DNA from: Acidipropionibacterium jensenii DSM 20535 | Lineage (GTDB): Bacteria > Actinomycetota > Actinomycetes > Propionibacteriales > Propionibacteriaceae | Reading direction: 5' to 3' | Assembly: GCF_000425285.1 (NCBI RefSeq) | Contig: NZ_AUDD01000003.1 | Coordinates: 124,001 to 188,000, forward strand | DNA: 64,000 nt | In this document: in pieces, positions 18,136-22,727 of the stretch | Layout of the letters: every line of letters begins with the position of its first letter | How positions within the stretch are numbered: the stretch's first letter is position 1 | Program-made: the position numbers and the translations under genes | The notes under the pieces: generated by a model | Database searches by the model: none | What the model was told of the DNA's origin: nothing | What the model saw: the letters and a program-made list of their open reading frames with translations, nothing else

Positions 18136-19146
18136 ATGGACATCGATCTGGCCGCGTTGCGCATGATCGAACGCGAGAAGGAGATCCCGCTCGACTACCT
18201 CGTCGAGACTCTCGAGGACGCCCTGCTCAACGCCTACGCGAAGACCGAGCACCCCGTCAAGGACGCCCGTGTCGAGCTCGACCGCAAGACCGGCAACGTC
18301 GCGGTGATGGTCCCCGAGCGCAATGAGGAGGAGGAGATCGTCGGCTGGTACGACGGCACCCCCTCCGACTTCGGCAGGGTGGCGGCATCCACCGCCCGGC
18401 AGGTGATCTTCCAGCGTCTGCGCGAGGCCGAGGACGAGCAGAAGTACGGACAGTTCCAGGCCGTCGAGGGGGACGTCGTCACCGGCGTCGTCCAGCAGTC
18501 CTTCCGCGACACCCGCACGGTGCACGTCGACCTGGGCGCCATCGAGGCCATCATGCCGCCCGCCGAGCAGGTGCCCGGCGAGAAGTACACCCACGGGCGC
18601 CGCCTGCGGGTCTACGTGGTCGCGGTCCGCAAGGAGCTGCGCGGCCCCCAGGTGGTCGTCTCCCGGACCCACCCGAACTTGGTGCGCAAGCTCTTCGCCC
18701 TGGAGGTCCCCGAGATCGAGCAGGGGGTCGTCGAGATCAAGGCCCTGGCCCGGGAGGCCGGCCACCGCTCGAAGATCGCGGTCACCTCGCACAATCCCGA
18801 TGTCTCGGCCAAGGGGGCCTGCATCGGGCCGATGGGCCAGCGGGTCCGCGCGGTGATGCACGAACTGGACGACGAGAAGATCGACATCATCGACTGGTCG
18901 GAGGATCCGGCCACCTTCGTCGGGGCCGCGCTGTCCCCGGCCAAGGTCAAGAGCGTCACGGTGGTCGACCCGGCCACCCGCGCCACCCGCGTCGTGGTGC
19001 CCGACTACCAGCTCTCCCTGGCGATCGGGCGGGAGGGCCAGAACGCCCGGCTTGCCAACCGGCTGACGGGCTGGCGGATCGACATCGTGCCGGACAATCC
19101 CGTCGACACCGCCGGACCGGCCACCACCGCCCCCGCCCAGCAGTGA
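18136..19146 (+). CDS. nusA: Transcription termination/antitermination protein NusA
   Basis: RNA polymerase-associated factor that modulates pausing and termination. It has 336 residues: N-terminal RNAP-binding domain (1-125), S1 domain (about 130-200, GDVVTGVVQQSFRDTRTVHVDLG), then two KH domains (about 225-330, with GACIGPMGQRVRAVM and AIGREGQNARLANRLTGW). It lacks the C-terminal acidic repeats of E. coli NusA, as is normal in actinobacteria. The ATG follows GAGGAG; an upstream open extension into rimP was rejected. Confidence 0.97.
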   Translation: MDIDLAALRMIEREKEIPLDYLVETLEDALLNAYAKTEHPVKDARVELDRKTGNVAVMVPERNEEEEIVGWYDGTPSDFGRVAASTARQVIFQRLREAEDEQKYGQFQAVEGDVVTGVVQQSFRDTRTVHVDLGAIEAIMPPAEQVPGEKYTHGRRLRVYVVAVRKELRGPQVVVSRTHPNLVRKLFALEVPEIEQGVVEIKALAREAGHRSKIAVTSHNPDVSAKGACIGPMGQRVRAVMHELDDEKIDIIDWSEDPATFVGAALSPAKVKSVTVVDPATRATRVVVPDYQLSLAIGREGQNARLANRLTGWRIDIVPDNPVDTAGPATTAPAQQ

Positions 19147-19418
19147 GTCGGTCGGGGGGCCGCCCGACGCAGCGCACCTGCGTGGGGTGCCGGCTCACCG
19201 GCGACCCGGCGACGATGGTGAGGTTCGTTCTCAGCGGAGACGCCGGCACCGGGTGGCTGGTCCGCCTGGACCCGACCTCCGCAGCCCCGGGCCGGGGTGC
19301 CCATCTGCACCCGGACCGGGGGTGCTGGCAGGCGGCGGCTCGGGGAGGCTTCGCACGGTCATTCCGCCGCAGAGTGAGGGTTGAGGCCCCGGACCGCCCC
19401 TGGGCGGCCGGCGACTGA
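19143..19418 (+). CDS. ylxR: YlxR/RnpM family RNA-binding protein (DUF448)
   Basis: Small basic nucleic-acid-binding protein of 91 residues. Its family signature is RTCVGCR at 11-17. The Bacillus homologue is reported to bind and modulate RNase P (RnpM). The GTG start overlaps the nusA stop by four bases (GTGA), so translation is coupled. A 13-bp hairpin begins 6 bases after its stop and closes the operon. Confidence 0.93.
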   Translation: MSRSGGRPTQRTCVGCRLTGDPATMVRFVLSGDAGTGWLVRLDPTSAAPGRGAHLHPDRGCWQAAARGGFARSFRRRVRVEAPDRPWAAGD

Positions 19419-19423
19419 GCACC

Positions 19424-19468
19424 GGCCCGCAGCCGGCGCGCGACACCGGGGCACCCCGGCTGCGGGCC
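19424..19468 (+). terminator. Hairpin terminator after ylxR
   Basis: A perfect 13-bp stem (GGCCCGCAGCCGG/CCGGCTGCGGGCC) with a 19-base loop, immediately followed by a second small stem CGGCGG-CCT-CCGCCG. It separates the nusA operon from the infB promoter. Confidence 0.65.
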
Positions 19469-19510
19469 GACGGCGGCCTCCGCCGGAGCGGGGGCCGTCC
19501 CGGGTGGGAA

Positions 19511-19539
19511 TTGGCCCCCGCTTGGGTTTTCGGTACACT
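19511..19539 (+). promoter_or_regulatory. Predicted promoter of infB
   Basis: TTGGCC (19511-19516) and TACACT (19534-19539) are 17 bases apart, the best -35/-10 pair in the window. It predicts a leader of about 175 bases. Confidence 0.7.
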
Positions 19540-19620
19540 CGACCACGCGCGTCTGCCGGAAACCGCCGGCGACCTCACCGAACTATGCCCTGCCCCTGAC
19601 GGGGAAGGACTGACAAGAAA

Positions 19621-19694
19621 GTGAGCAGACGCTCATGACGACTCGATGAGTACGCATCAATGAGCAATCGCACCATCTAGTTGGCCCGAGCCAA
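19621..19694 (+). promoter_or_regulatory. infB leader with four chained mini-ORFs and a hairpin
   Basis: Four tiny reading frames follow each other: GTG 19621 to TGA 19638 (5 residues), ATG 19635 to TGA 19649 (4), ATG 19646 to TGA 19663 (5) and ATG 19660 to TAG 19680 (6). Each stop overlaps the next start as ATGA. A purine-rich GGGGAAGGA at 19601-19609 precedes the first. TTGGC-CCGA-GCCAA (19681-19694) then forms a small hairpin before the infB ribosome-binding site. The rest of the 300-base gap holds only the terminator and promoter listed separately. Confidence 0.45.
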
Positions 19695-19718
19695 CACGGC
19701 CGGGTCCGAAGGAGAGTA

Positions 19719-22700
19719 GTGGCCAAGGTCCGTGTCTATGAGCTCGCGAAAGAGCTCGGACTGACAAGTAAACAGCTTCTGGGGAAGCTGGGCGATATGG
19801 GAGAGTTCGTCCGGTCTGCTTCCTCAACGATTGAGGCGCCGGTCGTGCGACGCGTGCGCGACCAGTTCAAGAACGGCTCACACGGCGGCGACGCCGGTGA
19901 GAACAAGCAGACCCCTCGCCCCCGCTCCGGCGTCAAGCCCGGCCCCGGGCGCAAGCATGTCGCCGAGCAGGGGCATGACGAGCACGGCACGTCCGACAAG
20001 GACGCCGGTGGCGAGTCGCACGGTTCTGCCGAGAAGCACCACGTGGGGCCCCATCCGGTCCCGCACCCCACACCGCGCGGCGGGTTCAACACCGCTCCCG
20101 GCGGTTCGTCTGCGGCGCGCACCAGCGTCACCCCGCGTCCCGGCCTCATCAAGCCCGGTCCGCACTCGCAGAGTCACCAGGGTGAGGCCGCTCACGGCGG
20201 CACCTCCCAGGGGCGGCCCTCCGCCAAGGAGGCCGGCCACCACGGTCAGGGGGGTGCGCACTCCGGTTCGGAGGCGCCGCGTCCCGGATCCGGTCGCAGG
20301 ACCCCCTCCTCGGGAACTCATCCGACCCCGCGCACCGCGCCGCTCAAGGGTGCCCCGCACCCGCATCCGGGACCGCGTCCCGGTGGTTCGCGAGCCGGTG
20401 GCACCGGCGGTCTCCCCACCTCCGGTCGTCCGGGCCCCAAGCCCGGTGCCCGTCGCAGCTCCGGGCCCCGCCCGGGCAACAACCCCTTCGCGTCCAGCCA
20501 GGGAATGGGTCAGAATCGACGTCGCTCCGAGCAGGGCGGTGGCCGTCCCGGCCAGCGTCATGAGGGCGCCTCGCGTCCCGGTGGCGAGCGGATGCCCCGT
20601 CCGGGCGGCACCTCGGGAATCCCGCATCCGAATCCCGCGATGATGCCCAAGCACCAGTCGAACCAGATCGGCCACACCTCCGGTGGCGGTCGAGGTGGTC
20701 GTGGTGGCCGCGGCGGTGGTCGTGGCGGCCAGAGTCGTGGCGGTTTCGGCGGCGGTCCTCGCGGACCGGTCGGCGGCGGCCGTGGTGGCCGTGGCGGTCG
20801 TGGCACCCAGGGAGCCTTCGGGCGCGGCGGGTCCGGCGGTCGTCGGGGACGCAAGTCGCGTAAGCAGCGCAGGCAAGAGTTCGACGAGATGCAGGCGCCG
20901 CTGGTCGGCGGCGTGCGCGTCCACAAGGGCAACGGGCAGACCCTGCGGCTTCGCCGTGGTGCCTCGCTGACCGATCTGGCCGAGAAGATCAATGTCGAGC
21001 CGGCTCAGCTGGTGCAGGTGTTGTTCAACCTCGGTGAGATGGTCACCGCCACCCAGTCGGTCTCCGACGAGACCCTGGAGATCCTGGGTACCGAGCTGGA
21101 CTACAAGATCCAGGTCGTGTCCCCGGAGGACGAGGACCGCGAGCTGCTGGAGTCCTTCGACCTGGAGTTCGGCGAGAACGAGGGAGACGAGGACGATCTT
21201 GCTCCGCGTCCCCCGGTCGTCACCGTGATGGGCCATGTCGATCACGGCAAGACCAAGCTGCTGGACACCCTGCGCCACTCCCATGTGGTGGAGGGCGAGG
21301 CCGGTGGCATCACCCAGGCGATCGGCGCCTACCAGGTCGAGACCGATGTCGACGGACATGATCGCAAGATCACCTTCATCGACACCCCCGGTCACGAGGC
21401 CTTCACCGCCATGCGTGCCCGTGGCGCCCAGTCCACCGATATCGCGGTGCTGGTCGTTGCGGCCGATGACGGCGTGATGCCTCAGACCGTCGAGGCGTTG
21501 AACCACGCCAAGGCGGCCGGTGTGCCGATCGTGGTGGCGGTCAACAAGATCGACAAGCCGGGAGCCGATCCCGAGAAGGTGCGCGGTCAGCTCACCGAGT
21601 ACGGGCTGGTCACCGAGGAGTACGGCGGCGACACGATGTTCGTCAACGTCTCCGCCAAGACCGGCGAGGGCCTGGACAAGCTGCTCGAGGCGATCATCCT
21701 GACCGCCGACGCCGCCCTGGATCTGCGCGCCAACCCGGACATGCCCGCCCAGGGTGTGGCCATCGAGGCTCACCTGGACAAGGGTCGTGGCCCCGTGGCC
21801 ACCGCCCTCATCCAGCGCGGAACGCTCAACATCGGCGACTCGATCGTGGCCGGTTCGGCCTACGGCCGTGTCCGTGCCCTCATCAACGACAAGGGCGAGA
21901 CCGTCGAGAAGGCGCTGCCCTCGGATCCGGTGCAGGTGCTCGGACTCACCTCCGTGCCCGGTGCAGGAGACAACTTCCTGGTTGTCGAGGACGACCGGAT
22001 GGCCCGGCAGATCGCCTCCAAGCGAGAGGCGCGGATGCGCGCCGCCCGCCAGGCGAAGTCGTCGCGTCGCAAGACCCTCGACGAGCTGTTCGATCAGCTG
22101 GAGAAGGGCGAGACGCAGGAACTGCTGCTCATCCTCAAGGGCGACGGCGCCGGTTCGGTGGAGGCCATGGAGGATGCCCTGGCCAAGATTGACGTCGGCG
22201 ACGAGGTGGATCTGCGGGTCATCGACCGCGGTGTCGGTGCCATCACCGAGACCAACGTCGACCTGGCATCGGCCTCCAACGCGGTCATCCTCGGCTTCAA
22301 CGTGCGCCCGACCGCGCACGCCGCCAAGATGGCCGACGAGGAGAATGTCGACATCCGCTACTACTCGGTGATCTACGACGCGATCGACGACATCGAGGCG
22401 GCACTGAAGGGGATGCTCAAGCCGATCTACGAGGAGAAGGCTCTGGGCAGCGCGGAGATCCGTCAGATCTTCCGCTCCTCCAAGGTCGGCACCATCGCGG
22501 GTTGCATGGTCACCAACGGAACCATCCGTCGGCACGCCAAGACCCGTCTGGTCCGCGACGGAGTGGTGGTCACCGAGACCGAGATCAACACCCTGCAGAG
22601 GGAGAAGGACTCGGTCACCGAGGTGCGCGAGGGGTTCGAGTGTGGCCTCACACTCACGAACTACTCCGACGTCCGCATCGGCGACGAGCTGCAGTGCTAC

Positions 22701-22727
22701 GAGATGGTCGAGAAGCCGCGCGAGTGA
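19719..22727 (+). CDS. infB: Translation initiation factor IF-2
   Basis: GTPase that delivers initiator tRNA to the 30S subunit and drives subunit joining. It has 1002 residues. A short IF2-N domain ([19 protein letters not shown]) starts the protein, followed by about 370 residues of Pro/Gly/His/Arg-rich low complexity, including an RGG-type stretch at roughly 317-387. A second IF2-N-like domain follows, then the G domain with GHVDHGKT near 505-512, NKID, and the beta-barrel and C1/C2 domains. GTG start after GAAGGAGAG. The actinobacterial long N terminus explains the size. Confidence 0.98.

Follow-up and report, generated by a model that had tools for sequence, protein, structure and literature searches.

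A conserved chain of overlapping mini-ORFs upstream of infB in Actinomycetes, a likely serial termination-reinitiation leader

The window analysed here is a stretch of 64,000 nucleotides from the 3.03 Mb assembly of Acidipropionibacterium jensenii, and all coordinates refer to its forward (+) strand, on which every feature described below is read. The ORFs of ylxR (19143–19418) and of infB, which encodes initiation factor IF2 (19719–22727; GTG start, relatives found), are separated by a 300 nt gap, and a chain of four mini-ORFs occupies positions 19621–19680 within it. Mini-ORF 1 (19621–19638; GTG AGC AGA CGC TCA TGA) has 5 codons and reads VSRRS (fMet-SRRS). It is followed by mini-ORF 2 (19635–19649; ATG ACG ACT CGA TGA; 4 codons, MTTR), mini-ORF 3 (19646–19663; ATG AGT ACG CAT CAA TGA; 5 codons, MSTHQ) and mini-ORF 4 (19660–19680; ATG AGC AAT CGC ACC ATC TAG; 6 codons, MSNRTI), each of which shares an ATGA overlap with the mini-ORF before it. 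The infB GTG lies 38 nt past the end of the chain. A. thoenii is the nearest named relative among the matches listed, with an IF2 that is 98% identical over the first 51 residues.

A sequence-only reading of this leader had reported four chained frames of 5, 4, 5 and 6 codons with three ATGA overlaps and a final TAG, preceded by a purine-rich site and followed by a hairpin and the infB ribosome-binding site, and each of these elements can be read in the sequence. The purine-rich site is AAGGA at 19605–19609, the likely ribosome-binding site for entry into the chain, and a hairpin and then AGGAGA (19710–19715), identified by sequence and anti-SD energy as the strong Shine-Dalgarno site of infB, lie beyond the last stop. 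That the first frame opens with GTG is a detail absent from the initial observation, and we regard mini-ORF 1 as the weakest and least certain member of the chain: a GTG-started first frame is kept only among Propionibacteriaceae-like leaders, and it overlaps a ribosome-binding-like box. By eye, a small hairpin (TGAGC-AGAC-GCTCA, 19622–19635) can be drawn between this box and the first ATG, and relatives may keep a different small hairpin at the equivalent place.

How often would such an arrangement arise by chance? We shuffled the 200-nt leader 20,000 times with its dinucleotide content preserved, and at least three ORFs were linked in 146 of the shuffles (exactly three in 141, four in 5). 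Real sequence gave a lower figure: among 2,546 tiles taken from the same 64-kb window, each 200 nt long, three linked ORFs turned up in one and four in none. Genome-wide, the pattern ATGA-N4..13-ATGA-N4..13-ATGA occurs at 37 sites, and stop and start are coupled at both junctions in three of them, the infB chain included. The two other coupled triples, which are the one point in favor of coincidence, lie at G000:C3:61915–61934 and G000:C3:40361–40398. The sequence-only reading had left room for a chance arrangement; the shuffles and the window tiles speak against one, and conservation throughout the Actinomycetes, presented below, removes the last doubt, leaving chance with a negligible probability.

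To follow the chain through the class we applied a fixed definition: ATG or GTG starts, 2–12 codons per ORF, overlaps of 4 or 1 nt, and a last ORF of up to 40 codons with its stop 20–200 nt before infB. Leaders were taken from the best 80 of 335 relatives among named genome records, from A. jensenii itself and four other genomes of the genus, and from 70 of 315 matching genomes in a draw across the phylum (the 30 best matches and 40 picked for family spread). At least three linked mini-ORFs precede infB in 124 of 127 Actinomycetes loci, a count that omits one locus with only 76 nt of leader (L025), whereas dinucleotide-shuffled class leaders contain three or more in 240 of 12,700 cases (1.9%). 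Under the same definition, chains of three were found at none of 27 infB loci from other classes of the phylum. A second set, drawn for family breadth from 30 class genomes without the exact pattern described below, yielded 29 matches (all but G523), and under a wider definition (up to 20 codons per ORF, up to 60 in the last) 27 of these 29 loci, under 18 further family labels, have at least three linked mini-ORFs; a second IF2-like match (L215) is left out of the 29. Those 18 labels are new with respect to the phylum draw and not to the named records, as the chains of L195 and L200 equal those of L019 and L065. Together the two sets cover 27 family labels, with class membership of L001–L080 taken from record titles, some metagenome-assembled genomes included, and family names beyond the titles being our own reading. 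Fewer than three linked ORFs were counted at L013, L022 and L028 in the first set and at L190 (one) and L214 (two) in the second; both L022 and L028 show a pair of linked ORFs, with a third start 2 nt past the stop. At times the chain script also includes an extra upstream ORF whose membership is doubtful. One record, titled Sporosarcina beigongshangi (L054), carries an Arthrobacter-like infB and leader and is probably misnamed or a mixed assembly.

The loci are related, so these counts are not independent trials, and the changes between chains are the better evidence. Two of the 127 entries (L081 and L086) are the A. jensenii window itself, L001 and L083 share one chain, and Streptomyces and Arthrobacter contribute more than their share of loci; the number of distinct chains is 92. 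An exact form, ATGA-N5-CG-ATGA-N8-CG-ATGA, is present once in each of 74 of 296 class genomes, and the reversed control pattern has no match in the 296. The exact form starts 87–109 nt before infB in the five of these 74 genomes in which it was placed relative to the gene (G213, G346, G141, G289 and G393). The A. jensenii chain falls outside this set by having CA for CG at its last junction. The overlaps are therefore kept in close relatives, where their loss had been named as the result that would tell against the chain, and even class-wide. As a feature of the infB leader the chain stands as first described; it is not a local one, being a class-wide element into which ylxR often runs.

We then asked which properties of the chain are kept. 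Junctions in the 92 distinct chains are ATGA (191), GTGA (19), TAATG (2), TGATG (2) and TAGTG (1), and starts are 11 nt (109) or 14 nt (100) apart at most of these 215 junctions. All spacings within a chain are 2 modulo 3 by definition of the overlap, and we therefore also counted successive RTGA sites independently of the chain definition, at −150 to −30 and no more than 26 nt apart. Of these spacings, 238 of 274 are 2 modulo 3, the phase that coupling requires, 30 are 0 and 6 are 1. The base after the start gives a similar contrast. At the first start, which no junction constrains, it is free: 86 distinct chains comprise 47 with A (41 ATGA, 6 GTGA) and 39 with G (35 ATGG, 4 GTGG). At inner starts A is kept in 203 of 203, largely because the overlap is defined that way. 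Of 58 single-step differences between inner codons, 29 are synonymous where 14.1 would be expected, with the reservation that the pairs are not independent, and third codon positions vary most (33 of the 58).

The letters and peptides themselves drift. The mycobacterial-type chain runs MSTP, GTGA, MKSR, ATGA, MTMRHS, the Microbacteriaceae-type chain METK, GTGA, MNGSK, ATGA, MRPVRE, and one Brevibacterium leader uses TAGTG and GTGA as its junctions; elsewhere the peptides include MSTR, METK, MRKI, MKLK, MSSFTS or MSASQ, MKAFA and MSVSA according to family, and the architecture is constant. Since letters and peptides change while overlaps and frame stay, selection appears to act on the stop-start overlap and its frame more than on letters or peptide. 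It follows that ORFs of 4–6 codons, far under the usual limits of annotation, can be retained class-wide.

These comparisons bear on two other explanations. The first is an untranslated RNA or protein-binding motif, built on the repeated GATGAG, in which starts and stops are incidental. Letters are strongly conserved within families, as such a motif would predict, and a hairpin described below accompanies the chain; between families, however, the letters differ while overlap and frame remain constant, the spacing shifts by 3 nt, and no Rfam match was found. Rewiring of the junctions and frame-preserving changes in spacing disfavor a pure RNA motif, which we consider very improbable. The Rfam result comes from a search of positions 19100–20100 against release 15 at E values up to 5, in which the two matches, at 13.8 and 13.4 bits, fell short of their gathering scores of 42 and 70 and point to no known family.

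The second is an arrest-peptide leader, in which a drug or metabolite would cause one of the mini-peptides to stall its ribosome, and infB would thereby be opened. Peptides of 4–6 residues hardly reach into the ribosome exit tunnel. A conserved nascent peptide or set of regulatory codons, the mark of arrest and attenuation systems, is not found in the chain, where the peptides are not conserved between families, nor is there a consistent structural switch. What can be said for arrest is that similar short upstream ORFs have been described, as in the part of the whiB7 report available (PMC10727445), and that in the first set of loci 47 of the 73 distinct ORFs at ATGA junctions have CGA directly before the stop, compared with 9 of 99 NNA codons in eight genes of the window. 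None of those 73 ORFs ends in a GNA codon; GCA is present in L188, L191 and L201, and with its appearance in these further families a CGA rule for the last codon was dropped. Peptide arrest is, on balance, scarcely probable.

If the mini-ORFs are translated, where do ribosomes enter? Anti-SD energies average −2.2 kcal/mol at 251 internal junctions and −7.9 at infB, the stretches searched being shorter at the internal junctions; the internal starts thus have no Shine-Dalgarno site, and infB has a strong one, from which it could initiate independently of the chain. At the entry to the chain the mean is −5.6, close to the −5.2 of random sequence, so an entry Shine-Dalgarno site is not proven. In the A. 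jensenii window (L081) and in L002 the best anti-SD match lies 26–34 nt upstream of the first ATG.

Transcription may begin within the gap. A promoter-like pair, TTGGCC-17-TACACT (19511–19539), fits a loose pattern and would place the transcript start at about 19546; a stricter scan returned no promoter. Loose pairs with 17–18 nt spacing recur in 8 of 9 Propionibacteriaceae-like leaders (the A. jensenii copy and one duplicate included), which argues against a transcription start downstream of 19680, the position beyond which the chain would be left out of the message. For Mycobacterium abscessus, the available part of PMC10727445 reports binding upstream of infB (MAB_3131c) by WhiB7, a regulator that ribosome stalling induces, a hint that the gene may be transcribed from a promoter of its own there too.

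Ribosomes might also arrive from ylxR. Its frame runs to the start or into the interior of the chain in 48 of 123 class loci and stops 4–311 nt upstream of it in the remaining 75, with 202 nt in A. jensenii; these distances depend on the choice of the ORF that opens the chain and of the reading frame. Feeding of the chain by ylxR also fits plain operon coupling, by which the chain would hand ribosomes from ylxR to infB and keep the two proteins in step with no sensing involved. The nusA stop and ylxR start of the A. jensenii window likewise overlap as GTGA (19143–19146), so that stop-start coupling in this operon already begins one gene earlier. Against such coupling stand the 75 loci at which ylxR ends short of the chain, among them A. 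jensenii with its own promoter-like pair; moreover, a single junction would suffice for it, and the last mini-ORF has no overlap with infB. We consider plain operon coupling unlikely.

Distances at the other end of the chain are more uniform, with 33–50 nt from the last stop to infB in 84 of 92 distinct chains, and a hairpin is commonly found there. Fold tests were made on 73 of 124 leaders, after dropping leaders with tails longer than 75 nt and near-identical rows. In 67 of the 73, a stem of at least 6 pairs (P1) starts no more than 8 nt from the first base of the last stop codon; its mean score is 18.6 compared with 13.2 in shuffles, the 5′ arm being confined in this search to 16 nt or less from the stop, and individual stems reach a shuffle rank of 0.05 or less in 29 of 73. 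The predicted folds at the A. jensenii stop include GTTGGC/GCCAAC (19680–19685 with 19690–19695) and GGCCCG/CGGGTC (19683–19688 with 19701–19706), the latter being closest to the P1 of relatives. Alignment A1 contains 47 sequences (46 of the 73 leaders and the A. jensenii window; mycobacterial rows are not aligned at P1), and in it pairs have changed on both sides at 6 of 7 P1 positions, an observation that an RNA or protein-binding motif would also accommodate. Among 500 shuffles of A1, the real value was reached by 1 for percentage paired, 2 for pairs changed on both sides, 7 for the covariation score, 27 for cells changed on both sides and 53 for further pair types. Room for P1 is scarce in L213, where the last stop is 21 nt from infB.

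A second pairing, P2, between the loop of the hairpin and the infB Shine-Dalgarno site, is found in several lineages (for example L004, L006, L029, L088, L121 and L123). Three of the leaders bearing it are from Janibacter. The P2 segments between the last stop and infB include CCTTCATC, CCTTCTCT and CCTGTCT, among others, and their arms change in step. It was not seen in Streptomyces leaders, and its mean score is 7.1 compared with 5.9 in shuffles. When a ribosome was placed on the last stop, predicted accessibility of the Shine-Dalgarno site went down in 12, stayed unchanged in 43 and rose in 18 of 73 leaders, a split in which neither a shared structural switch nor a shared sign can be seen. 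In the Propionibacteriaceae-like leaders L001, L002 and L085 it was predicted to rise to 0.98–0.99, which, in the model, is the opposite of a simple repressing role. For its absence from Streptomyces, its weak mean score and the lack of a common direction in accessibility, a Shine-Dalgarno-sequestering P2 switch was dropped as a general mechanism.

Judged by its z values of −0.8 to −1.6, the leader is not unusually stable overall, and this lack of marked structure would suit a role as a ribosome shield or frame trap, in which short-lived ribosomes guard the leader from Rho and nucleases and stray ribosomes are stopped in all three frames. Successive mini-ORFs do lie in different frames, and judging from the spacings every frame is closed. 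A trap needs only stops, however, yet the starts are kept by way of GTGA, TAATG and TAGTG, and one short ORF would shield equally well. We think this role improbable.

Taken together, the overlap geometry and the lack of Shine-Dalgarno sites within the chain lead us to conclude that the infB leader is likely a serial termination-reinitiation leader. The geometry of termination-reinitiation recognized at the outset is borne out by conserved overlaps and frame, by junction swaps (GTGA, TAATG, TAGTG), by frame-keeping changes in length and by the absence of internal Shine-Dalgarno sites. From the sequences, translation of the chain and its control over infB may be inferred, and the occurrence of chains at the same place in nearly all relatives suggests that the cell uses repeated stop-and-restart to control IF2.

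A plausible course of events would be as follows. A ribosome would enter at the upstream ribosome-binding site or, in some relatives, from ylxR, make a peptide of about 4–6 residues, terminate at a TGA shared in part with the following start codon, and reinitiate there with no Shine-Dalgarno site. This round of stop and restart would be repeated two to four times until the last stop is reached, beside the hairpin and some 40 nt short of infB. How many ribosomes stay on the chain would depend on the speed with which a terminated ribosome regains initiator tRNA with IF2, and occupancy of the chain would in turn set infB translation. P1 would stand in the path from the last stop and would hinder movement to infB. 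The most likely sign of such control is homeostatic: with IF2 plentiful, ribosomes would be reloaded and spent on the chain, and with IF2 scarce, some terminated ribosomes would skip reloading at AUGA and proceed to the strong infB site. A bypass sensor of this type would call for inner starts that are weak and an outer one that is strong, as in the leader.

As to the signal, IF2 brings initiator tRNA to the ribosome, and feedback on infB through IF2 or initiator tRNA, already suggested in the sequence-only reading, is therefore a natural guess and the best idea we have, with the feedback of IF3 on infC as a precedent. IF2 and IF1 also remove short peptidyl-tRNAs from ribosomes, an activity that would offer IF2 a second way to act on ORFs of 4–6 codons. 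In the available text of a review (PMC5972666), terminated ribosomes are described as moving more than 40 nt in either direction and initiating at a start with a Shine-Dalgarno-like site. The section there on a reconstituted system names IF1 and IF3 as the factors on which reinitiation depends and does not name IF2, which counts against IF2 sensing. Weighing these points, we give an even chance to a serial reinitiation chain whose occupancy follows recapture of IF2 and initiator tRNA and sets infB translation. A more specific version, in which several recaptures of initiator tRNA on the overlapping mini-ORFs act as a counter and infB output reads initiation capacity throughout the class, is tentative, and we lean against it.

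The closest precedent is uPPE2-PPE2 of Mycobacterium tuberculosis, for which the available part of PMC11260477 reports reinitiation at an AUGA overlap from a single uORF. As with uPPE2-PPE2 and the NUGA overlaps of bacteria and archaea generally, stop and start in the infB leader share 4 nt, translation of an upstream ORF would feed the next start, and the downstream start has no Shine-Dalgarno site; thus both the stop/start overlap and the lack of an independent ribosome-binding site at inner starts, the attributes of termination-reinitiation, are present. Instead of one uORF and one gene, the infB leader chains two to four mini-ORFs of about 4–6 codons, the last of these does not overlap its target gene, and the arrangement is conserved over a whole class. 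As far as we have found, the single reinitiation step has been described before, and a leader made of a conserved run of such steps has not.

Other known systems share parts of the design. The uORFs of yeast GCN4 leave room for scanning ribosomes to pick up initiator tRNA again from one uORF to the next, whereas the infB mini-ORFs overlap and only the last gap of the leader could serve this purpose. GCN4 resembles the infB leader in having several short uORFs and in that expression may depend on the supply of an initiator tRNA complex; dependence on initiation factors is established for GCN4, according to the passages available in PMC5972666, whereas for the infB leader such dependence is a proposal. 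RF2 controls its own synthesis at prfB by way of an in-frame UGA, another translation factor sensed through its own step, although prfB uses a frameshift in the coding region and infB would use a leader chain. Likewise IF3 controls infC through the initiation step that it governs, the start codon being ATT, or ATC in Streptomyces (PMC5472188, in the part available). In both infC and infB the initiation region of a translation-factor gene would hold the step governed by that factor; in infC this is start codon discrimination by IF3, and infB is preceded by a row of reinitiation events. The whiB7 and ilvB1 attenuators, as described in the accessible parts of PMC13236596 and PMC10727445, also combine a short upstream ORF with a leader hairpin, and differ in having one ORF, stalling and alternative hairpins in place of a leader with no consistent switch. 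Within the same rimP-nusA-infB operon, the rimP-leader is a control element of another type, a terminator motif in the 5′ UTR upstream of rimP (PMC2965389, available passages).

Among the papers listed in searches of the open-access literature (main articles), no published description of an infB mini-ORF leader was found. Papers that name both infB and uORF contain no description of the leader in the passages available, infB is absent from the main text of PMC9094748, PMC11260477 and PMC13236596, and PMC7247131 names neither IF-2 nor an initiation factor. Among plasmid records queried with the leader and the start of infB there were 5 matches, all confined to the infB part.

IF2 is essential, and we found no account in the open literature of how its level is set translationally in Actinomycetes. 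A leader in which overlaps are kept while peptides drift offers a natural serial test bed for reinitiation, and if sensing of IF2 or initiator tRNA is true, autocontrol of initiation becomes directly testable with simple reporters. Should the leader act as a counter, it would be a bacterial counterpart, by a different geometry, of the sensing of eIF2 by GCN4, and IF2 would become, after IF3 and RF2, another translation factor sensed by way of its own step. Some class genomes encode a second protein that matches the IF2 N-terminus (G054:C107, G230:C92, G282:C26 and G598:C98); the one leader seen for such a gene (L215) has no chain, and the open frames are 967–1382 residues long.
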